Source: Myxococcota bacterium
GTDB taxonomy: Bacteria > Myxococcota_A > UBA796 > UBA9615 > JAKLKC01
Length of the DNA: 64,000 nucleotides
Assembly: GCA_023150875.1 (NCBI GenBank)
Contig: JAKLKC010000026.1
Span: forward strand, 1 to 64,000
Direction: 5' to 3'
The stretch's first letter is position 1, and each line of letters starts with the position of its first letter. Made by a program: the position numbers and the translations under genes. Below the pieces are notes generated by a model. That model searched no databases and was not told the DNA's origin. It saw only the letters and a list, made by a program, of their open reading frames with translations. Shown piece after piece: positions 33,565 through 56,111 of the stretch.

Positions 33565-34104
33565 GTGACTCCTTTCTGCGCTGAATCCACAGGGAGGGTC
33601 GGCACGCCCGAGCCCCGGAGGACCACGTCCGGCTCGCGGTTGCTCGCGCCCGGCCGTGGGGCCTTGTGGGCCTTGGCCCTGCTCGTGGCTGTCGTCGCCG
33701 GTTGCGAGCGGCGGCGTGAAGTCCCCCCGGCCCGTCCCGAGGGGAGATTGAGCTCGGGCAAGTGGGCGTGCGACGAGTTCCTCCGGCACGTCCGGGGGAG
33801 GCGACCGGAGGCGGCCTACGGCCTGCTGAGCCCCATGGTTCGCGAGCAACTGCCCCTGGCCGGATTCGAAGAGCGCCTCGAGCTGTTCCCACCCCTCGCC
33901 GAGAGCACCGACCACTTCTTCTACGAGAGCGGCGAGCTGTACTCGCGCGGTGCCCTGATCCGCGTCACGCGCAAGGTCGAGTTCGCGTGCTTCCACGAGG
34001 CGGAGGACACGGCAAGGCCCGAGTACTCGGTGCTGAGCGTGGTCGTTGGTGGCGTGCCGGTCGTCGGACTGGGCGTCCACGACTCCGCCCAGGCCCCCCC
34101 ATGA
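33565..34104 (+). CDS. Lipoprotein with NTF2/DUF4878-like domain
   Basis: About 179 residues. A hydrophobic stretch ALWALALLVAVVAGC gives a lipobox; the start is uncertain: GTG 33565 has GAGG a few bases upstream, while TTG 33640 would give a more normal short signal. The mature part (WACDEFLRHVRGRRPEAAYGLL, then FEERLELFPPLAEST, then a beta-rich end) resembles the NTF2-like cone fold of small envelope lipoproteins of the DUF4878 type. Function unknown. Confidence 0.68.
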   Translation: MTPFCAESTGRVGTPEPRRTTSGSRLLAPGRGALWALALLVAVVAGCERRREVPPARPEGRLSSGKWACDEFLRHVRGRRPEAAYGLLSPMVREQLPLAGFEERLELFPPLAESTDHFFYESGELYSRGALIRVTRKVEFACFHEAEDTARPEYSVLSVVVGGVPVVGLGVHDSAQAPP

Positions 34105-46884: not shown

Positions 46885-47185
46885 GTTCCCTCCCTATCGA
46901 GGCGCGGGGGGCGCCCCGGGCATGGCACGAACGTGTCCGGGCGGGTCGAGACGTCAAGGAGGAGATCCGAAAATTCCCGAGAACGTCCCGGAGGAGATCC
47001 CCCTCCACCCCGGGAGGGAGGCTCCGGGGAGGAGCGGACGCACCGGCGACCTGCAAGGAAATCGCGCGCCGATGTAGCGCTTTCCCGCGGGATGCGGGTC
47101 AATGGGGGAGACGGCCGGGCGAGGAACCGGGAAGGTCCCCGCGCGGAGGGGCGGCGGCGTCCACCGCCCGAGAAGGAGGTGTCCG
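46885..47185. other. Divergent intergenic region
   Basis: A 301-bp gap between calpain (minus) and a lipoprotein gene (plus). It has A/G-rich and GGAGGAGATC-type words repeated at about 46963 and 46991, a short GCGGGATGCGGG stretch near 47088, and the strong AAGGAGG site at 47173-47179. No gene or RNA is supported. Confidence 0.4.
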
Positions 47186-48208
47186 GTGAGGTCGATCCGA
47201 TTCGATGTGCTGGGGCTGGCGATGGTCGTTGGGGCGGGCTGCGGGAGCGGGGACGCCCCCGACGGAGGATCGGACCCCTCCCTCGACGGGGCTTACGCCC
47301 TGGCGGACCTCCTGCCCCATCCCGCCGACGTCGAGGTCCTGACGCCCGAGTCCTCGGCCCTGTCGGCGGTGGAGTGGGACCCCTACTACACCCTCACCCG
47401 CCAGGTCAGCGGCGACGTGAACTCGCTGGTCACGAACTGGCTGGAGGTGATCCACGACATCGTCCGGCTGACCCCCGTGGCCGAGTCGGAGGACTCCTGG
47501 GCGTGGGGGCCCTTCCACCAGGGGGAGGGCGGCCTCGGGCCCACCACCGAGTACTTCTTCGCCGAGCGCCACCCCGACGGCACCTACTCCTATGCCCTGA
47601 TGGAGGCGGCCCGGGCGGACGAGGACGACGGCGACGCCTACGTGGGCATCGTCGCAGGGAAGGTGCTCGGCGGCTCCGGCGTGGAGGACTCCTTCGGGTG
47701 GTTCGCCGTGGACTTCACCGCGGCGGCGTCCATGGACCCGACCCGGGAGACCGTCGGACAGGCGGTCTTCGCCTACGACTTCACCGGCACCTACACCGCC
47801 GAGTGGGGCGGGGGTCCGCTGGTGATGTCGGTGCTGGACGACGTGTCGGAGGTGGAGGGAGAGGGGGCCAGCGGCACCTACGCCTACTACCGCCGCCCCG
47901 ACGGCGCCGGGGTCCTGGACCTGCGCGTCCAGGAGGACATCGGCGCCAGCGCCTCCGAGGAGCTGTGGGAGATCCGCAGCCGGTGGACCGCGGACGGCGC
48001 CGGGCGCTCCGACGGCCGGATCGCCGGGGGCGACCTGGGGGCGACGGTGGTCACCCTGCACGACTGCTGGGCCGAGACCTTCACCACCGTGTGGTACGAG
48101 GACGACTCGGGCTGGAACGAGCCCGCCGGCAGCGAGTCCGCGTGCGCCTTCGCCGACGAGAGCTTCCCCTCCCCCCTCCCCGCGTGGATGGCGGCCCTCT
48201 CCGGATGA
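47186..48208 (+). CDS. Predicted lipoprotein, unknown function
   Basis: A 340-residue protein. GTG 47186 lies 6 bp after AAGGAGG, which decides the start. Signal FDVLGLAMVVGAGC gives a lipobox with Cys at about residue 19. The mature part is acidic and rich in aromatic residues with several antiparallel-strand-like blocks (YYTLTRQVSG, TEYFFAERHPDGTYSYALM, GEGASGTYAYYRRPDG), and two Cys near the end (HDCWAE, SACAF). It looks like a beta-barrel or lipocalin-like surface lipoprotein; no family is recognised. Confidence 0.78.
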   Translation: MRSIRFDVLGLAMVVGAGCGSGDAPDGGSDPSLDGAYALADLLPHPADVEVLTPESSALSAVEWDPYYTLTRQVSGDVNSLVTNWLEVIHDIVRLTPVAESEDSWAWGPFHQGEGGLGPTTEYFFAERHPDGTYSYALMEAARADEDDGDAYVGIVAGKVLGGSGVEDSFGWFAVDFTAAASMDPTRETVGQAVFAYDFTGTYTAEWGGGPLVMSVLDDVSEVEGEGASGTYAYYRRPDGAGVLDLRVQEDIGASASEELWEIRSRWTADGAGRSDGRIAGGDLGATVVTLHDCWAETFTTVWYEDDSGWNEPAGSESACAFADESFPSPLPAWMAALSG

Positions 48209-48298
48209 TCCCGTCCCCGCGGCCCTCCCCCACCCCCCGCGTGCCCGGACGGTGACAGGCTCCGGTGACGGGGAGGGCCCGGGCGGACCTCGTCCGAG

Positions 48299-48796
48299 CT
48301 ACACCCGCCCCTGCCGAGCCCCCGGGATCCGGATCTTCTGCCCCGGGAAGATCCGGTCGGGGTCCTTGATCACCTCGCGGTTGGCCTCGAAGAGGCGTGG
48401 GTACTCGCCGGCGTCCCCGTAGAAGCGCTGGGCGATGGCCGAGAGGGTGTCGCCCTTGCGGATCTCGTAGTAGGTCACGACCTCCTCGGCCGACGGCGCC
48501 GCCGGGCCGGAGGCCGTGTCCGGAGCGCCACCCCCCCCGGGCTGATCCACCCTGAAGGTGTCGATGTCGACCCGCTCCACGCCCTGGACGTTGCCGGCGA
48601 TGAGCACCGCCTTCTGGAGGGCCGCCGCGCTGGGCGCCCGGCCCGAGAGGGTGACCTTCCCGTCGTCGTAGCGCACGTCCAGGTCCCGCAGGCCGAGCCC
48701 GGACTGGACCAGCTCCTCCCGGATCCGGCGGGCGGCGTCGTCCTTCCCCCCGAAGAGCTTGCGACCGACGTCCTTCGCGAAGTCGAGCATCCCCAT
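48299..48796 (-). CDS. BON-LysM domain protein (YgaU/Kbp-like)
   Basis: A 165-residue protein from ATG 48796 behind GGAGGGATC. N-terminal BON domain (about 18-90: AARRIREELVQSGLGLRDLDVRYDD, VTLSGRAPSAAALQKAVLIAGNVQGV) joined by a Pro/Ala linker to a LysM domain (about 110-160: YYEIRKGDTLSAIAQRFYGDAGEYPRLFEANREVI). The architecture equals E. coli Kbp, a cytoplasmic potassium-binding protein. No signal peptide. A short CTTGCAAG palindrome lies upstream at 48848-48855. Confidence 0.93.
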   Translation of the reverse strand: MGMLDFAKDVGRKLFGGKDDAARRIREELVQSGLGLRDLDVRYDDGKVTLSGRAPSAAALQKAVLIAGNVQGVERVDIDTFRVDQPGGGGAPDTASGPAAPSAEEVVTYYEIRKGDTLSAIAQRFYGDAGEYPRLFEANREVIKDPDRIFPGQKIRIPGARQGRV

Positions 48797-48992
48797 GCCG
48801 ATCCCTCCAACGCCCGCCCGGCGGCGCGACCGCGCCCGGGGAGTGGACTTGCAAGGCGCGTGTCGTCGGGCACCGGGCACATCGAGGGCCCGGAGCGGCC
48901 CGCGTCCGGCCCTGTCCGGAGCGCCCCGATCCTCTCCCCGTGGCCCTCCCCTGCCCGTGCCCCCTCCGGGCCTCGCCTTCTTTCGAAAAAAA

Positions 48993-49010
48993 CTTGCGTT
49001 CGTCTGCAAG
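48993..49010 (+). promoter_or_regulatory. ArsR-type operator candidate 1 (CTTGC-N8-GCAAG)
   Basis: A perfect 5-8-5 inverted repeat in the AT-richest stretch before arsR, next to AAAAAAA (48986-48992). The same architecture is repeated 28 bp downstream. ArsR proteins bind such palindromes over the promoter and release on arsenite. Confidence 0.6.
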
Positions 49011-49020
49011 CGAGCCAATA

Positions 49021-49038
49021 CTTGCACCATGACGCAAG
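49021..49038 (+). promoter_or_regulatory. ArsR-type operator candidate 2 (CTTGC-N8-GCAAG)
   Basis: A second perfect CTTGC-N8-GCAAG inverted repeat, overlapping the arsR start codon (49029). With the site at 48993 it would let the dimer cover both promoter and ribosome binding site. Confidence 0.55.
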
Positions 49039-49442
49039 CACGCAAGAGTTCGAAGCCCGGCCGCGGTCCCGCCTGCTGCCCGGACCTGGGGTCCGAGTCG
49101 ATCCTGAGGCTGTTCCGGGCCCTGGCGGACCCCAACCGGGCGGCGATCCTCACCCGGATGGTGGGCTGCTGCGAGCCCCGGACGGTGAGCGACCTGGCGA
49201 GCTGCTGCCCGGTGGACTTCTCGGTGGTCTCGCGGCACCTGGCGGTGCTGAGGGATGCCGGGATCCTGGGCGCCGAGCGGAGGGGACGCCAGGTGGTCTA
49301 CACCCTGCGGGCCGCCGAGGTCGCCGCCCAGCTCCGGCGCCTCGCCGACGCCCTCGACGCGTGCGCGTCTCCGACCCCCAGTCCACCCGCGCCCGGCACG
49401 GCCGAGGCGCTTCACCCGGAGAACGGCGATGAACACCCATGA
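49029..49442 (+). CDS. arsR: ArsR-family transcriptional repressor
   Basis: A 137-residue winged-helix repressor in front of the arsenite methyltransferase gene, so probably an arsenite-responsive regulator of the operon. Seen are LRLFRALADPNRAAILTRM, a recognition helix SVVSRHLAVLRDAGIL, and ERRGRQVVYTL in the wing. Cysteine pairs near the N-terminus (ACCPD), in the helix (GCCEPRT) and in LASCCPVD could bind As(III). Two CTTGC-N8-GCAAG sites overlap its promoter and start codon. Its end overlaps arsM by 14 bp. Confidence 0.93.
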   Translation: MTQARKSSKPGRGPACCPDLGSESILRLFRALADPNRAAILTRMVGCCEPRTVSDLASCCPVDFSVVSRHLAVLRDAGILGAERRGRQVVYTLRAAEVAAQLRRLADALDACASPTPSPPAPGTAEALHPENGDEHP

Positions 49443-50274
49443 AGACGTGAGGAAGGACGTGTCCGAACACTACGCCCGCGCGGTCAGCGGCGGGGGCGGC
49501 TGCTGCTCCCCCCGGGAGCCCCGCGGCTCGGCGGCGAAGCTGGCGGGCTACCGCCCGGAGGACGTCGCCGCGCTGCCCGACGACGCCGTGGCCAACTCCT
49601 TCGGCTGCGGGAACCCCCTGGCGTTCGCGGACGTGAAGGAGGGGGACGTGGTCCTGGACCTGGGCTCGGGGGCCGGGATCGACCTGCTGATCGCCGCCCG
49701 TCGGGTGGGCCCGTCGGGTCGGGTGATCGGGGTCGACATGACCGACGAGATGATCGCCCACGCCCGCCGGAACATCGCGGCGGCGGGGGCCGGGAACGTG
49801 GAGGTACGGAAGGGCATCATCGAGGAGCTCCCCGTGGAGTCGGCCACAGTGGACCACGTGATCTCCAACTGCGTGATCAACCTGTCCCCCGACAAGCCGC
49901 GGGTCTTCGCGGAGATCGCCCGGGTGCTGCGCCCCGGCGGGAGGATGCGGGTGTCGGACATCGTGGCCCGGGACCTCCCCGACGTGATCAAGGCCATCCC
50001 GGCGGCCTACGCCTCGTGCGTCTCCGGCGCCATCTCCGAGGAGGACTACGTGCGGGGCCTCCAGGAGGCCGGGCTGGTGGACGTGACCGTCGAGGAGCGG
50101 CTGGTCTACTCCGCCGACCAGCTCGTCGCCCTCGTCGCCAGCGACGTCGAGCAGGCCCAGGGGGGCGGCACCTGCGGCTGCGGCGGCATCCCCAGTGACA
50201 TCGTCGCCGCGGGCGCCCACCTCGTGGAGGGCAAGGTCTGGAGCGCGAAGGTCTCGGCCCGCAAGCCCGAGTGA
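49429..50274 (+). CDS. arsM: Arsenite S-adenosylmethionine methyltransferase
   Basis: A 281-residue methyltransferase that adds methyl groups from SAM to As(III), giving volatile or less retained methylarsenicals. The SAM motif DLGSGAG (77-83) and GVDMTDEMI are clear. The conserved As-binding cysteines are Cys60 (NSFGCGNP), Cys148 (VISNCVINL) and Cys197 (AYASCVSGAI); CC at 25-26 may add. The C-terminus has GGGTCGCGG. It overlaps arsR by 14 bp. Its last ~160 bp are duplicated, with divergence, at 52161-52323. Confidence 0.95.
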   Translation: MNTHEDVRKDVSEHYARAVSGGGGCCSPREPRGSAAKLAGYRPEDVAALPDDAVANSFGCGNPLAFADVKEGDVVLDLGSGAGIDLLIAARRVGPSGRVIGVDMTDEMIAHARRNIAAAGAGNVEVRKGIIEELPVESATVDHVISNCVINLSPDKPRVFAEIARVLRPGGRMRVSDIVARDLPDVIKAIPAAYASCVSGAISEEDYVRGLQEAGLVDVTVEERLVYSADQLVALVASDVEQAQGGGTCGCGGIPSDIVAAGAHLVEGKVWSAKVSARKPE

Positions 50275-50446
50275 ACCCCCACGGCCGCCGCCGCTCCCCG
50301 CTCCCACACCGGGGGGCGGCGGCGGTCCGCGCGGGCGCCTCGTGACGCCGCCTCCCCGAAGCTGAAGCGGTACTCCCGGTGGCACGAACCCTCGCGGTGC
50401 ATCATGCAGCCCTCCCGCTGGGGCTGCACGGTGTAGCGGAGCCCCC
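50112..50446 (+). repeat. Left direct repeat flanking the AbiE cassette
   Basis: About 335 bp: the last ~160 bp of arsM, the GC-rich spacer, and the 3' end of a DUF6125-type gene (minus strand). It aligns end to end with 52161-52497 in the same orientation, with many scattered substitutions and a small length difference. Confidence 0.85.
50341..50446 (-). pseudogene. Truncated 3' remnant of the DUF6125-type gene
   Basis: On the minus strand this encodes GLRYTVQPQREGCMMHREGSCHREYRF, nearly the same as the C-terminus of the intact gene at 52389-53291 (GLRYTVQPRGEGCMM, SCHREYRF). The stop is lost by substitution and the rest of the gene is missing; the frame runs into abiEii sequence upstream. 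It is a decayed copy. Confidence 0.75.
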
Positions 50447-50496
50447 TGAACACACACTCGCCATCGAAGCAGGAGGCTACGACGAACCCGGCGACG

Positions 50497-51453
50497 TCAC
50501 CCGTGCAGCGTGCCGACCCACTCGCGGATCGTCGCGCAGGCATCATCGAGCGGGATCCGTGTTCCCCAGAACATCGGTGCGATCTCGGCGTACGCCCGCT
50601 CGACGCTCGCGCGCTTCTTCGAGTCGTGGAGCACCAGCGACGGGTCGTCGGCACTCGGCAGCGCGGCGATGCCCTTCTCGGCGAGCATGTCCTCGGCCAG
50701 CGCGAGGGCCGAGGTCTCCATCCGCGGGAGTCGGTCGAGCGCCTCGACGATGCGGGCGGCGTCCTCGTAGTGGCGCACGAAGGCTTCCGCCTCGACCACG
50801 TCGCGGTTGTAGCGACGCGAGAGCGCGTCGAGCTTCTCGATGAGCGAGACGACGGGGTGGACGCAGCGCACCGCTCGCGGCCGGTTGTCAACGTAGTCGT
50901 CGCTCATCCCGAGGCGCTCGAGGTGGTCATGCACGAAGGAGGTCAGCGGCATCAGGGCGAACGGGACGACGCGCGCGCGCCCGACCTCGAAGCGGACGAA
51001 GGGGCTCACCGCGCTCGGCAAGCCCGTGACGCGGACGCCGGGGTAGTGGCCGATGTAGTCGGCGGCGCGCGCGTACTTGTCCCGCCGCTGCGCGTCGAGC
51101 TCCACCGACACGCAGGGGATCGCGAACGCCGCGGGGAGCGCGTCGTAGAACGCGCGGCGCTGGGCGGTCGGGCCCTTGTTGGCGCTCGCCCAGTTCGTGA
51201 CCTCGGGGAGCGTGGTGACGCCACCGCGCTCGATCATGATGTCGAGGTCTTCCGAGAAGCGCTCGATGATCCCGAAGCCCTTCGAGAGGCTGGTGCCGCC
51301 TTTGAACCAGATGGCGAGCTTCGTCTCGTGAAGCGCCCACAGGCTGTGGGTGATCCAGTAGTCCTTCTCGACGAGTGCGACGGCGATGCCGGTCGCGACC
51401 GAGACCTGGGTGAGCAACGCGACGAACTCGGGGTCTTCGTGGACGAAGGTCAA
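50497..51453 (-). CDS. abiEii: AbiEii-type nucleotidyltransferase toxin
   Basis: A 318-residue nucleotidyltransferase toxin of the AbiE type IV abortive-infection / toxin-antitoxin system. Motifs: EKDYWITHSLW (about 29-39), WFKGGTSLSKGFGIIERFSEDLDIMI (about 49-74) with Asp69 and Asp71 as metal ligands, and a C-terminal helical half. The toxin modifies tRNA or other nucleotidyl targets when not neutralised. Its TTG start overlaps the abiEi stop (TTGA), giving antitoxin-first, coupled expression. It lies between the two ars-derived direct repeats. Confidence 0.9.
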   Translation of the reverse strand: MTFVHEDPEFVALLTQVSVATGIAVALVEKDYWITHSLWALHETKLAIWFKGGTSLSKGFGIIERFSEDLDIMIERGGVTTLPEVTNWASANKGPTAQRRAFYDALPAAFAIPCVSVELDAQRRDKYARAADYIGHYPGVRVTGLPSAVSPFVRFEVGRARVVPFALMPLTSFVHDHLERLGMSDDYVDNRPRAVRCVHPVVSLIEKLDALSRRYNRDVVEAEAFVRHYEDAARIVEALDRLPRMETSALALAEDMLAEKGIAALPSADDPSLVLHDSKKRASVERAYAEIAPMFWGTRIPLDDACATIREWVGTLHG

Positions 51454-52040
51454 TCGGCGCTCGCCTCGGTCTCGTGGAGGGCGTCCTCCACGAGCGCGAG
51501 CGTCGCCCTCGTGCCGTAGGTCTCGGCCATCTTGCGCAGGCGCTCGCGATCCCAGCGGCCGAGCTGCAGCGTAGCCACGAGCCCCTCCCACAGCTCGCTC
51601 AGCGCGACACCGGCCATGCCGCGGTGCTGGAGCAGGTCGACCACGAACCACTCCGGCGTGGGATCCTCGGGAAAGTACACGCGACGCATCAGGAAGCGCC
51701 GCCCGCCGAGGACGACCTCGCCCGTGCGGCGGGTGTTGTAGACCAGCGTCACCGCGAACAACGCCGTCGAGCCGAGGCCCAGCGCGTTCCACTGCGGCGG
51801 GCCGGTGACGAGGAAGGGTTCGCCGCCCAGGTACGCTCGGAGCAGCTCCTCTTGGGCGGCGGGCGCCGGGCCGAACTTGGTGGGGACCGGCGCGTAGTAG
51901 AGGCCGTGCGCGGCTTCCCGCAGCCTGCCCTCATCCACGAGGCGCCGCGCGAGCCGCGTGGGGTTCGCACTCCATCGGCGCAGGTCCCGGGTGCGGTACG
52001 CGCGGCCGGGCTCGATCTGGGGTCGCGCAGCGGTGCTCAC
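51450..52040 (-). CDS. abiEi: AbiEi-type antitoxin / autorepressor
   Basis: A 196-residue protein from GTG 52040, 5 bp after GGAGG. The N-terminus is a winged helix (AYRTRDLRRWSANPTRLARRLVDEGRL) followed by YYAPVPTKFG, typical of AbiEi, and a C-terminal antitoxin domain (LLQHRGMAGVALSELWEGLVATL). AbiEi neutralises AbiEii and represses the promoter. The AT-rich leader (52045-52080, TAATAAATCC and CAAAACATACG) should hold that promoter and operator. Confidence 0.87.
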   Translation of the reverse strand: MSTAARPQIEPGRAYRTRDLRRWSANPTRLARRLVDEGRLREAAHGLYYAPVPTKFGPAPAAQEELLRAYLGGEPFLVTGPPQWNALGLGSTALFAVTLVYNTRRTGEVVLGGRRFLMRRVYFPEDPTPEWFVVDLLQHRGMAGVALSELWEGLVATLQLGRWDRERLRKMAETYGTRATLALVEDALHETEASAD

Positions 52041-52128
52041 GGTCGCCTCCGTAATAAATCCACCGTACAAAACATACGACACGCGCCGTCGCGCGGCAAG
52101 CGAGCGAGTGGCTTCCCGCGTAGATGGC

Positions 52129-52162
52129 GGCCCTGTCCGAAGCGTCCCGATCCCCTCTCCCG
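52129..52162 (+). other. Scrap of a second ars upstream region
   Basis: About 34 bp match 48908-48940, in the region upstream of arsR (shared words GGCCCTGTCCG, CCCGATC, CTCTC). It joins directly to the copied arsM 3' end, so arsR and most of arsM appear deleted from this second copy. Short and diverged, so moderately certain. Confidence 0.5.
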
Positions 52163-52323
52163 CCGACCCGCTCGCCGCCCTCTTCGCCAGCGACGCCGAG
52201 CAGGCCCAGGGGGGCGGCACCCGCGGCTGCGGCGGGATCCCCCGTGAGATCGTCGCCGCGGGCGCCCACCTCGTGGAGGGCAAGGTCTGGAGCGCGAAGG
52301 TCTCGGCCCGCAAGCCCGAATGA
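52161..52323 (+). pseudogene. Truncated 3' end of a second arsM
   Basis: Encodes in frame ASDAEQAQGGG, RGCGGIP and HLVEGKVWSAKVSARKPE, matching the last ~54 residues of the intact ArsM with a few changes (TCGCGG became TRGCGG). Start, SAM domain and As-binding cysteines are gone. It sits at the right edge of the AbiE cassette. Confidence 0.82.
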
Positions 52324-52497
52324 ACCTCCACGGCCGCCGCCGCTCCCCGGTCCTGCACCGGGGGGCGGCGGCGGTCCGCACGGGCGCCTCAGGACGCCGC
52401 CGCGTCCCCGAACGTGAAGCGGTACTCGCGGTGGCAGGAGCCCGTGCGGTACATCATGCAGCCCTCCCCCCGGGGCTGGACGGTGTAGCGGAGCCCC
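52161..52497 (+). repeat. Right direct repeat flanking the AbiE cassette
   Basis: Aligns with 50112-50446: arsM tail, spacer with a GGGGGGCGGCGGCGG block, and the 3' end of the DUF6125-type gene. Differences are spread along the whole length, so the two copies have diverged or come from different strains. Confidence 0.85.
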
Positions 52498-53291
52498 AGG
52501 GCGTCGAACCACGCCTCCATGCGGGGCATGATCCCGCAGTCGTAGGCGTCCACGACCCCGAGGCGGGTCACCCCCTCGAACGCGAAGCAGCGGCGCACGT
52601 CCCAGCGCATGGTGTCCGGCGCCGGCCAGGTGCACTCGAAGTCCATGAAGTCGGCCCCGATCAGCTCCCAGGCGCGCTCCACCAGGGCGCGGAGGTCGTC
52701 CATGGAGCGCACCTGGGGGATCCCGAACGCTTGGAGGAGCCTGCGGACCTCCACGGCGGCCATCGACCGCACCGCCGCCTGGTTGACCTGGTTCGCGGCC
52801 TCCATGCCGAACCGCTCGACGCAGTGGCGCAGCCACATGGCGTCGTGGGTCATCCACCCCTTCAGAAGGAGCTGCCGGGCCGGAGCGGCCTGGGGTGGGG
52901 CCGCTCCCTGGAGGGGCGCGAGTGCGGCGCGGTCGAACCACACCTCGTTCCTCTCGATGAGGTCGCCCCGCAGCCGCACGAGGTCCATCCCGTCCACCTG
53001 CACCTCGCCGTCGCCGCCGGCGGGGCGGAAGGTGGCGCGCCACAGGATCGCCGCCCCCTCGCCCCCCGAGAGGGGATGGACCTCCCGCAGGGACCAGCGC
53101 ATGTTCCAGCCGCGGAAGAGCTTCTCGAGGTACCGCCGCATCGCGTCGCGCCCCCGCACCTCGCCGCGGGTGTTGGGGTCGCGGTAGACCAGGTCCAGGG
53201 TGTAGTGGGCCAGGACCCCGTCCACGTCCTGGGCGCTCCACGCCTCCAGGATCTCCCGTGCCAGCGGCTCCAGCGTCGCCTCGTCCCTCAT
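52389..53291 (-). CDS. SnoaL-like / DUF6125 (L-2-amino-thiazoline-4-carboxylate hydrolase-like) protein
   Basis: A 300-residue two-domain protein. Residues 1-135 are a SnoaL/NTF2-like domain (EILEAWSAQDVDGVLAHYTLDLVYRDP, RYLEKLFRGWN). Residues 140-300 match the DUF6125 / L-2-amino-thiazoline-4-carboxylic-acid-hydrolase-like family (WMTHDAMWLRHCVERFGMEAANQVNQ, CGIMPRMEAWFDALGL, CMMYRTGSCHREYRF), with Cys and His that could bind a metal or heme-like ligand. It lies beside arsM in both copies, hinting at a linked role. A divergent palindromic operator lies upstream at 53369-53388. Confidence 0.85.
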   Translation of the reverse strand: MRDEATLEPLAREILEAWSAQDVDGVLAHYTLDLVYRDPNTRGEVRGRDAMRRYLEKLFRGWNMRWSLREVHPLSGGEGAAILWRATFRPAGGDGEVQVDGMDLVRLRGDLIERNEVWFDRAALAPLQGAAPPQAAPARQLLLKGWMTHDAMWLRHCVERFGMEAANQVNQAAVRSMAAVEVRRLLQAFGIPQVRSMDDLRALVERAWELIGADFMDFECTWPAPDTMRWDVRRCFAFEGVTRLGVVDAYDCGIMPRMEAWFDALGLRYTVQPRGEGCMMYRTGSCHREYRFTFGDAAAS

Positions 53292-53368
53292 GCAAGCTCC
53301 TCTCTCGGTCTCGGGGTCCGGCGCCGGAGGGGCGAGGGGACGACCGAGTTCCGTGTTCGCAGACTTCT

Positions 53369-53388
53369 ATTCTAGAATTGCATTCTAG
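53369..53388. promoter_or_regulatory. Palindromic operator in a divergent promoter (ATTCTAG half-sites)
   Basis: The segment holds the palindrome ATTCTAGAAT (53369-53378) overlapping CTAGAAT-TGC-ATTCTAG (53372-53388), so three half-sites. It is an AT-rich TetR- or MarR-like operator between the DUF6125-type gene (minus, 78 bp away) and the methyltransferase gene (plus, 114 bp away). No matching regulator gene is adjacent. Confidence 0.6.
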
Positions 53389-53501
53389 TCAAGAGATGTC
53401 GGACGTCCCGCGTGAGGATCTGCCCCACCGGGCTTGCCCCGGCGGGCCGGACTCCCGATCTTGATGCGGGCAGGTGGTGGGTGGGGGCTGAAGGAGGATC
53501 G

Positions 53502-54338
53502 ATGGCCGGGGAGACAGCCTTCGGGAGCGGCAGCGACCGGGAGTACGTGCTCGGCACCCACGACGAGGAGGTGGAGCGGCTGGGCCTCCAGCACCAGATC
53601 TGGAGGTCCCAGTCCTACGCCCTGTGGGAGAGGGCGGGATTCCGTCCCGGCCATCGGCTGCTGGACCTGGGGTGCGGGCCGGGGTTCACCACCCGCGACC
53701 TGGCCCGGCTGGTGGGGAGGGGCGGGAGCGTCATCGCCGTGGACGTCTCCGAGCGGTTCCTCGCGCGGCTGCGCGCCTGGCCACCCGAGCCGGGCGCGGG
53801 CCCCATCGAGGCGAGGGTGGGGGACGTACGGGACCTGGACCTCGGGGAGGCCAGCGTCGACGGCGCCCACGCCCGCTGGGTGATGTCGTACTTCCCGGAT
53901 CCCGAACGCGCCGTCGCCGCCGTCGCCCGCGCCCTGCGCCCGGGCGGCGCCCTGGCCCTCCAGGAGTACGTCGCCTATGGCAGCATGGGCGTGTCGCCAC
54001 CCATCCGCCTGATGCCGCGGGTGGTCGCCGCCATCGAGGAGAGCTGGCGTGCCCGGGGCGGCGATCCCGACGTCGCCCTCGCCCTGGTCCCCGCCCTCTC
54101 CTCCCACGGCCTCCGCGTCGAACGCACCGACCCGGTGGCCCGCATCGCCCGCCCCGGCACCCTGCTGTGGCAGTGGCCGGACACCTTCTTCCGCAACTAC
54201 CTCCCGGTCCTGGTGGACCGCGGCCTCCTCCACGAGGACGAGCGCCGGGAGTTCGAGCGGGACTGGCGAGCCCGCAGCGCCGATCCCGACTCCCTCTTCG
54301 TCGCGCCCATGGTGCTGGACGTGGTGGCGAGGAAGTAG
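53502..54338 (+). CDS. SAM-dependent methyltransferase (class I)
   Basis: A 278-residue methyltransferase from ATG 53502 behind a perfect AAGGAGGATCG. Motif I is LLDLGCGPGFTTRDLA, then VIAVDVSERFL, GDVRDLDL, and motif post-I WVMSYFPDPERAVAAVARALRPGGALALQEY. The C-terminal half is more variable and may set the acceptor. Small-molecule or UbiE-like acceptors are possible; it cannot be decided. It faces the ATTCTAG operator. Confidence 0.9.
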   Translation: MAGETAFGSGSDREYVLGTHDEEVERLGLQHQIWRSQSYALWERAGFRPGHRLLDLGCGPGFTTRDLARLVGRGGSVIAVDVSERFLARLRAWPPEPGAGPIEARVGDVRDLDLGEASVDGAHARWVMSYFPDPERAVAAVARALRPGGALALQEYVAYGSMGVSPPIRLMPRVVAAIEESWRARGGDPDVALALVPALSSHGLRVERTDPVARIARPGTLLWQWPDTFFRNYLPVLVDRGLLHEDERREFERDWRARSADPDSLFVAPMVLDVVARK

Positions 54339-54519
54339 CTCCCCCCGCCGCGGGGACGCCGCTGGACGTCGTCCGCGGCCGCCTCCCGCTCGCGGCAACC
54401 CGGCCGAGCCCCCGAGATCGCGGACGGGGGCACCGATCCGTGAAGCCGCCGCGGAAGGAACGCCACCGCCAGCCACGAAGCAGGCGACCGCGCTCCGCAT
54501 TGACACCCGGTCCTGACAG

Positions 54520-55404
54520 GTGTACGCGATGGCCATGGAAGCACTTGTGGCGCTGGTGTGCCGAGATCTGTGGTCCCCCCATGTATCGATGAGGCGGGTA
54601 GGCAGGACCGGTCCAGGAGCGGGCCTGGCTCGGACCGGGTCGTGGAGAGGGTCCCTGCCACAGGCGATCGATCCCCACCCCGGCGGGGCCCTGACGGCAC
54701 GGCGCGGCGTCGCGCTCCTGGCACTCGCCCTCACGCTCGCTTTCCCGCGCTCGGGTTCAGCCGGAGCCGCGGACCCACCGCCGCAAGCGCCACCCGATGT
54801 CAGCGCGCGGCGAGACGCATCCGGCTCCGTCCCTTCCGCCCCCGAACGTGCGCCAGACTCCCCGTCCGGGGCCGCACCGGTGGCCCAGGCCGTGAGGGAC
54901 TGGCCGTGGCTGGGGATCCTCGGCTGCCCGCGCTCCGATCTCGGACTCCTCCTCGGCGGCCTCGGGGCCGAGACGTCGCGGAAGGAGGGGGCATGGCTGT
55001 GGGCCGAGAGGGGCTTGACGCTGTTCTTCAGCGGCGAGGGCTCGTTCGGCGCTACGGCGGACCTCCTCCGGGGGATGGGCTTCGGTGGCCCCCCGGCCGG
55101 AGCGACGCTCCAGCGCGTGGTGATCCGATTCCCCGCACCCACCGAGGACGAGCCCCGGTGGCAGGGCAAGCGACCTCTGGGCTTGCCGGAGCGGCCCGCG
55201 CTCGCGGACCTCCGCGCGGCCCTCGGCGAGCCCACCGACATCGAGGACTGGAGCCTCGGCTCACGCCTGGCCCGCTGGTCGGTCCCAAGCCAGGGCGCCC
55301 GCGTGGAGGCATCCATCGTCAAGAGCGGCGGAGGCGATCGCGTCACCCGGCTCGAAATGACCCGCGAAGGCGACGCAAGACCTCGCTGCCCTGGCGACGG
55401 CTGA
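54520..55404 (+). CDS. Predicted secreted protein, unknown function
   Basis: About 294 residues from the first in-frame ATG; 54589 is another start. A hydrophobic stretch RRGVALLALALTLAFPRSGSAGA about 60 residues from the first ATG looks like a Sec signal, so the real start is probably the later one or a non-ATG codon. After a Pro/Ala/Ser-rich linker comes a globular region (WPWLGILGCPRSDLGLLLGGLG, GLTLFFSGEGSFGATADLLRGMGF, LADLRAALGEPTDIEDWSLG) with no recognised family. TTGACA at 54500-54505 may be a -35. Confidence 0.6.
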   Translation: MYAMAMEALVALVCRDLWSPHVSMRRVGRTGPGAGLARTGSWRGSLPQAIDPHPGGALTARRGVALLALALTLAFPRSGSAGAADPPPQAPPDVSARRDASGSVPSAPERAPDSPSGAAPVAQAVRDWPWLGILGCPRSDLGLLLGGLGAETSRKEGAWLWAERGLTLFFSGEGSFGATADLLRGMGFGGPPAGATLQRVVIRFPAPTEDEPRWQGKRPLGLPERPALADLRAALGEPTDIEDWSLGSRLARWSVPSQGARVEASIVKSGGGDRVTRLEMTREGDARPRCPGDG

Positions 55405-55445: not shown

Positions 55446-56111
55446 TCAGAAGGTCGCGTCGAACACCCCGGAGAGGGTTGCCCGGACGCCGTCACCGTTC
55501 GTCTGGTCGATGGCCACGCTGCCAACGAGCCTCGACGCGACTTCGTCCCAGGAGTCGACGACGACCGAGAAGCCCGCGGGCGAGGCGATCTGCCATGACC
55601 GCACGTACACCACGCCCCCCTCGTTGGGGTAGCGCTCGAAGGCGACCGTCGGGTTGTACGGATCCGTGTGGTCGTAGGTCCCAGGGGCCGTCGGCGTGGT
55701 CAGGATCGCGATGAGGAGACCGGCGGCCGCGTCTTGGACGGAGCACCGGATCTCGGCGATCCCATTGAGCTGCAGCGTCACGTTGTCGCTCGGTCCGATC
55801 CCCTGACCGCAGGTCGTGAATGCGAAGGAGAACCCGTCGACCTCGCCCGACCACGTTACGGTGGCGACGCCAAGAGGGTCTGCCGAGTCGTCGTCGGCCA
55901 TGTCGTCGTCGGCGGCGTCGTCGTCGGCGGCGTCGTCGTCGGCAGCGTCGTCGTCGGCAGCGTCGTCGTCGGCAGCGTCGTCGTCGGCAGCGTCGTCGTC
56001 GGCCGTGTCGTCGTCGGCCGTGTCGTCGTCCTGAGAGGTCGTCGACTGGCACCCCGGGACGGCGACACCGAGCAAGATGGCGAGCGCGAGGCGCATGTGG
56101 GACGTCGACAT
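55446..56111 (-). CDS. Lipoprotein with ten DDDxA repeats
   Basis: A 221-residue lipoprotein from ATG 56111 behind GGAGGAAC. Signal LALAILLGVAVPGC; then ten consecutive pentapeptides DDDTA/DDDAA/DDDMA/DDDSA coded by a 15-bp tandem repeat (55881-56030); then a beta-rich globular part (VTWSGEVDGFSFAFTTCGQG, then EIRCSVQDAAAGLLIAIL, FERYPNEGGVVYV). The Asp linker may bind cations or hold the domain off the membrane. Function unknown. An inverted repeat lies upstream at 56137-56152. Confidence 0.83.
   Translation of the reverse strand: MSTSHMRLALAILLGVAVPGCQSTTSQDDDTADDDTADDDAADDDAADDDAADDDAADDDAADDDAADDDMADDDSADPLGVATVTWSGEVDGFSFAFTTCGQGIGPSDNVTLQLNGIAEIRCSVQDAAAGLLIAILTTPTAPGTYDHTDPYNPTVAFERYPNEGGVVYVRSWQIASPAGFSVVVDSWDEVASRLVGSVAIDQTNGDGVRATLSGVFDATF
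55881..56030 (-). repeat. 15-bp tandem repeat, ten units, inside a lipoprotein gene
   Basis: Ten in-frame units of the type GACGACGACGCTGCC, coding DDDxA. Units differ mainly at the fourth residue (Ala, Thr, Met, Ser). Such repeats slip easily, so unit number is likely to vary between strains. Confidence 0.9.

Follow-up and report, generated by a model that had tools for sequence, protein, structure and literature searches.

The window, by which we mean the whole 64,000-nucleotide stretch of Myxococcota DNA that was analysed, forms positions 1 to 64,000 of a contig of 82,797 bases (G000:C99:1-64000) in a genome of 6.92 Mb and 180 contigs. It contains an arsR-arsM pair on the forward strand, followed by an AbiE toxin-antitoxin pair on the reverse strand and by a gene with SnoaL_2 and DUF6125 domains, also on the reverse strand and convergent to arsM. 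We examined the direct repeat that brackets the AbiE pair, the further traces of duplication beside it, and the routes by which the arrangement may have arisen. The features of the locus, in nucleotides (nt) of the window, are as follows.

49029-49442, forward: arsR-type regulator gene (Pfam HTH_20 and HTH_5; NCBIfam HTH_metalloreg, 66.8 bits, cut-off 55)
49429-50274, forward: intact arsM (NCBIfam NF008823, arsenite methyltransferase, 286.4 bits, cut-off 263)
50111-50445, forward: left repeat copy, holding the arsM 3' end, a hairpin and a DUF6125 3' fragment
50345-50445, reverse: the DUF6125 3' fragment, about 100 nt, with a 3-nt deletion and the stop lost
50447-50496, reverse: abiE module, downstream end; homology with locus L091 of genome G205 stops at 50458
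50497-51453, reverse: abiEii toxin gene, nucleotidyltransferase, TTG start (PF08843, 3.3e-18; PADLOC AbiEii, 1.7e-47)
51450-52040, reverse: abiEi antitoxin and repressor gene, GTG start (PADLOC AbiEi, 5.1e-51)
52041-52107, reverse: conserved abiE promoter- or operator-like DNA, seen when upstream sequences of abiE loci are set side by side
52160-52497, forward: right repeat copy, holding an arsM 3' fragment, the hairpin and the DUF6125 3' end
52389-53291, reverse: intact SnoaL_2 plus DUF6125 gene (Pfam SnoaL_2, 1.6e-17; DUF6125, 1.4e-7)

AbiEii matched PF08843 at 66.9 bits (cut-off 22.5) and AbiEi scored 20.9 bits against Pfam AbiEi_4, under the cut-off of 25; the NCBIfam profiles gave no match to either abiE gene. 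The abiEi stop and the abiEii start overlap by 4 nt (51450-51453), the layout of a single operon. The AbiEii translation holds FKGGTSLSKGFGIIERFSEDLDIM, which reads GG-x15-DLD and fits motifs I-II of AbiEii/DUF1814 toxins, given as hG[G/S]x15DhD in the excerpted text of PMC3985639; for motif IV (+DxxD) the nearest stretch in the translation is RHYED. The DNA upstream of abiEi is conserved in many compared loci, around TATGTT and TACGG elements. An overlapping bicistronic operon with abiEi upstream, the GG-x15-DhD toxin motif and conserved DNA upstream of abiEi are thus common to the window and to the type IV AbiE system as the excerpted parts of Dy et al. (2014; PMC3985639) describe it, whereas the window's upstream DNA differs in sequence from the TGTTGCTTTTA repeats of the AbiE described there. 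Toxicity, repression and phage defence are predictions for this pair: AbiEi would keep the operon repressed and counteract the nucleotidyltransferase AbiEii.

An earlier note on this DNA had described the AbiE cassette as lying between two diverged ars-locus repeats in the same orientation, and had proposed that the repeats be aligned. The two copies aligned at 91.1% identity (308 of 338 columns, one 3-nt gap, E 4e-135). Compared at fixed offsets over 50112-50446, they differ at 16 of 233 plus 14 of 102 positions, and the longest identical run is 71 nt (50200-50270). On the left, arsM is intact and the DUF6125 tail has lost its stop, the TCA at 52389-52391 being TCG at 50340-50342; on the right, arsM is reduced to a 163-nt 3' fragment and the neighbour is intact. 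The alignment, the gene layout and the codon comparison therefore bear out the described arrangement, including which gene is truncated on which side, and only the ends needed correction, the note's 50112 and 50446 each being one base off the 50111 and 50445 found here. The 9% difference along the repeat rules out a fresh duplication, as the note had argued. Only two copies were found in the genome, which rules out a dispersed element, and among the matches listed for the other 376 genomes of the phylum, with two candidates scored in each, none was longer than 87 nt. According to a joining of the flanks in silico, recombination between the repeats would delete 2049 bp and give an intact arsM beside an intact DUF6125 gene, in agreement with the proposal that excision could leave one intact ars locus.

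The right copy runs on leftward to 52112 as a composite scar, a feature absent from the earlier note, with two candidate sources upstream.

48176-48218, forward: source anchor 1, the 3' end of the open reading frame at 47102-48208 (82%, E 2e-4, score 44)
48907-48939, forward: source anchor 2, upstream of arsR (29/33 against 52128-52160, its best match genome-wide)
52112-52127, forward: scar piece 1, resembling 48176-48191 (14/16)
52128-52160, forward: scar piece 2, resembling 48907-48939 (29/33) and abutting the right repeat

A query of 52095-52165 against the 6.92 Mb returned two non-self matches with E below 0.05 (6e-5 and 2e-4; the next was 0.066), both of them upstream on the window's contig, no more than 4 kb away and collinear. 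An 83-nt query ending at 52160 scored 46 and 44 at the two anchors and at most 25 in 86 other window stretches, and none of 461 other 83-nt queries scored above 35 against the ars segment. Because the matches stand in collinear order, at least 2.3 kb (48176-50445) was probably duplicated, the right copy having later lost two blocks, and we infer that the scar is a single eroded copy of the duplicated stretch. The likeness between the anchors may have served the first of these deletions. The duplicated stretch would then be more than the ars segment that the earlier note had recognised, seemingly reaching the 3' end of the gene at 48.2 kb.

The ends of the AbiE module were located by comparison with related loci. 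Upstream of abiEi, DNA homology starts at 52077-52078 in most compared loci and at 52107 in locus L090; downstream, it extends to 50458 in L091. Between module homology and duplicated sequence this leaves 4 unassigned nt on the 52107 side and 11 on the 50458 side. Since the homology of the module stops no more than 11 and 4 nt short of the copies, AbiE would have come with the duplication or have hit its joint. AbiEi was found at E ≤1e-12 in 33 of the 377 genomes of the phylum, which are a draw from a larger group. Its best relative, 87% identical, belongs to another class (G205) and the best from its own class (G008) is 70% identical; the DNA of the window module and L090 is 84% identical over 682 columns. 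The closer relationship of AbiEi to the other class (87%) than to its own (at most 70%) suggests that the module was probably acquired horizontally.

Related loci differ in the state of their toxin gene. L091 (G205:C223) and L090 (G205:C402), whose AbiEi is 85-87% identical to that of the window, both keep abiEi, and abiEii is almost wholly deleted in the former and split in the latter; it is split, partial or missing in L090, L091, L092, L094 and L099.

The explanation that we prefer, with a probability of roughly one half, is that AbiE entered within a direct duplication of 2.3 kb or more, or precisely at its joint, and that the halves then decayed. A horizontally acquired type IV AbiE module and the duplication of 48176-50445 (S) would have given a first product S1-abiE-S2, in which arsM stayed functional in S1 and DUF6125 in S2 while the redundant parts drifted. 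S2 would have lost the equivalents of about 48192-48906 and 48940-50111, leaving the 338-column repeat and the 49-nt scar. The simplest single event would be either a Campbell-like single crossover that integrated a circle with abiE and a copy of S, or a repair-coupled insertion in which S was copied. In a Campbell-type insertion the left copy completes one gene and the right copy the other, and the insertion is reversible. The window has the same left and right completion, whereas the circle and the event are proposed here; we infer that duplication and insertion were one event, and likewise the order of events. Loss of the module across the repeats would restore arsM-DUF6125, and such excision should be selected against because the antitoxin would be lost.

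Decay of redundant halves was assessed from the codons of the two tails. In the arsM tail (54 codons) the differences fall 3/3/3 over the codon positions, with 7 nonsynonymous and 2 synonymous changes, and in the DUF6125 tail (33 codons) 3/3/6, with 6 and 4, respectively. Three residues of the right arsM fragment, P231, F236 and R249, were found in none of 26 ArsM homologues: position 231 is Q in 21 of them, and position 249 is Cys in 14 of the 17 that have a residue there. Sites 240 and 256 gave little information on which copy had changed. Because P231, F236 and R249 are unseen in homologues, the right fragment looks decayed, and the balance favours a loss of constraint on it. The pattern of differences is closer to decay of redundant halves than to a pair of functional ars loci, although not uniformly so.

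To place the window among other AbiE loci, we searched for direct repeats between their flanks. The first sample covered 42 of 44 AbiEi matches (the window, 11 of 14 regions and a further 30 of 30), from which 23 loci had both genes with 320 nt or more of flank on either side. At a repeat score of at least 36, five of the 23 had a direct repeat between their own flanks (the window, L075, L078, L079 and L105), compared to 0 of 506 cross-locus pairs; in inverted orientation the single hit in 23 was the window's hairpin. At a summed distance of at most 250 nt, 5 of 22 loci were bracketed and 0 of 810 pseudo-positions; the corresponding values were 5/22 and 5/810 at 500 nt, and 6/22 and 11/810 at 1000 nt. 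The second sample comprised 40 of the 103 PF08843 matches in the class (in 42 of 67 genomes), hand-picked by score and contig room before repeats were inspected. Thirteen of the 36 with enough flank were bracketed; in the same loci the count for pseudo-positions, which are non-independent and not matched to gene boundaries, was 57 of 828. Flanking direct repeats thus recur around AbiE pairs in this class, above controls. Integron attC sites were rejected as their identity, as no RYYYAAC/GTTRRRY core was seen in the upstream copy of the repeat at any of 13 other AbiE loci in the second sample.

Some of these repeats hold the last 7-47 nt of a transfer RNA (tRNA) gene, namely L152 (Asn), L179 (Val), L180 (Asp) and L076 (Pro), the last being too wide for inclusion among the five bracketed loci of the first sample. 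Others hold the 3' end of a protein gene: msrA in L079, a gene in L075, and hypF in L158. In L075 (G038:C277, 4993-5030 and 6595-6632) abiEii ends in codons similar to the 3' end of the gene upstream of it, as though the toxin had received a new tail from the insertion. The hypF case (L158, G000:C154:16900-25600) is a twin locus in the window's own genome, with an AbiE pair of another subfamily. Its order is intact hypF, a hypC 5' fragment, abiE, a frameshifted hypF 3' fragment, an AAA ATPase gene and intact hypC, so that here, too, the first gene survives on one side and the second on the other. The ATPase resembles the AriA, Old and GajA models and is defence-like. The hypF copies are 89% alike, with differences of 5/4/9 over the codon positions (7 synonymous, 8 nonsynonymous).

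Several observations weigh against the preferred reading. The scar is short and its two anchors are partly alike; 60-nt random queries against the whole window scored up to 43 in 40 draws, so the 33-nt match taken alone is only moderately strong, and the scar could be a small local repeat. Each module end is supported by one related locus, and most others stop earlier. Among the compared genomes, the nearest of which belong to another family of the same order, we found no relative with a single-copy site or with S1-S2 lacking abiE. Some brackets elsewhere may be dispersed repeats: the L074 repeat is present five times in 8.5 kb, and part of the L149 repeat also lies upstream of the same genome's other AbiE locus, L070. 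In the twin locus no difference is seen over 104 nt at the hypC starts, against 11% at the hypF ends, which requires more than one event there. At arsM, the homologues lean to the right copy at sites 233 (A 3, V 1) and 257 (E 5, D 1), eight of the nine differing codons are in the first 29, outside the conserved last 25, and all seven nonsynonymous changes spare the conserved end, a placement that fits a once functional right copy. Finally, the msrA repeat in G004 differs mostly at third positions (3/4/12), a pattern that fits a diverged functional donor or a paralogue.

The last two points, together with the collinear scar and the similar divergence at two loci of one genome (91% identity here, 89% at hypF), favour a diverged donor, the rival that survives best. 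In that case abiE would have arrived by homologous recombination on sister-lineage DNA with a collinear ars region about 90% identical, so that the repeats differed from the start. We regard this as possible but rather unlikely, given the arsM tail's even 3/3/3 pattern with 7 nonsynonymous and 2 synonymous changes, the residues of the right copy that none of the 26 homologues shares, the lost stop of the left DUF6125 tail and the identical hypC starts. The earlier note had proposed such a donor in the form of a second, related ars segment, a part that finds weak support here: the spared conserved end and sites 233 and 257 fit it, and the codon pattern and the unseen residues speak against it. 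The empty arsM-DUF6125 junction that the note had suggested seeking was not found among the 377 genomes: the SnoaL_2-DUF6125 fusion is matched at full length in the window's genome only, stronger matches in other genomes spanning one half, and no DUF6125 match at E 0.01 was present beside the 26 ArsM loci (about 1.5 kb flanks).

Site-specific integration at a gene 3' end and terminator, with a recombinase acting in trans and the repeats as attachment sites, draws on the tRNA ends at L076, L152, L179 and L180, on the window repeat being itself a gene 3' end with a strong hairpin, and on AbiE modules in arrays of tRNA-3'-end-like sites. These arrays, which we consider integron-like, consist of such a site plus a hairpin, in one orientation and at a spacing of about 0.85-3.8 kb.

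L189 (G026:C27:1-20000): seven sites, one at tRNA-Leu; cargo includes FG-GAP proteins
L192 (G026:C251:24015-44014): four sites, one at tRNA-Pro
L187 (G042:C75:1-20000): seven sites, no tRNA found; cargo includes AbiE, HipA and an M28 peptidase

The shared site TTCGA...CCCACCA was rejected as a new recombination site, since it is in part tRNA 3' ends plus terminator; at L175/L190 and L176/L187, sites of this type occur although no tRNA was found there. One chance-like match to the site lies in the window at 33865, outside the locus. Elements that integrate at the 3' end of a protein gene are known, e14 in icd being one. SGI1 integrates at the 3' end of trmE, according to the excerpted text of PMC8409611. 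Like the window, elements at tRNA or protein-gene 3' ends leave an intact gene on one side and a displaced 3' end on the other. In contrast, the window repeat spans two convergent gene ends, seemingly from a longer duplication, and continues as a collinear scar; no tRNA was found in 47200-55100 and no integrase among the seven local proteins scanned by Pfam. Site-specific integration therefore appears improbable as the origin of the window repeat.

An artefact of assembly or a mixture of strains, which the fragmentation into 180 contigs, the probable metagenomic origin of the genome and the 71-nt identical run might suggest, is very improbable, as the locus lies at least 30 kb from either end of the 82.8 kb contig, the copies differ throughout, module homology stops near the joints, and a similar design recurs on another contig and in other genomes.

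To our knowledge, how small defence modules lacking a transposase or integrase move between genomes is poorly understood. If AbiE entered with the duplication or on its joint, as we prefer, the scar of one acquisition is readable almost base by base, the flanking repeats hint at a way in which modules of this type are acquired and might be lost again, and the layout predicts a reversible state in which loss of the toxin-antitoxin pair repairs the host locus. With comparable scars around AbiE elsewhere in this genome and across the class, the acquisition route becomes testable. A broader and doubtful extension is that AbiE and other recombinase-less small cargo spread in the class by copying the 3' end and terminator of a neighbouring host gene, for a tRNA or a protein, beyond the cargo. 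The outcome would be single, reversible cassettes as here and, at tRNA genes elsewhere, integron-like arrays; the window would represent the protein-gene type, with a copied stretch of unusual length. Target duplication around an acquired module is of a known kind; its form here, with host-gene junctions and no recombinase found, is new. In titles and abstract openings, in a search outside which most subscription journals lay, we found no AbiE bracketed by duplicated host-gene ends. Toxin-antitoxin genes of Mycoplasma mycoides are flanked by direct repeats that were read as recombination scars; the excerpted text of PMC8562856 states this for an AAA-ATPase/protease pair, whereas the window carries AbiE.

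Beyond the ars locus, a 15-nt tandem repeat of about 10 units at 55878-56042 encodes an Asp/Ala-rich stretch in an open reading frame that appears lipoprotein-like by eye.

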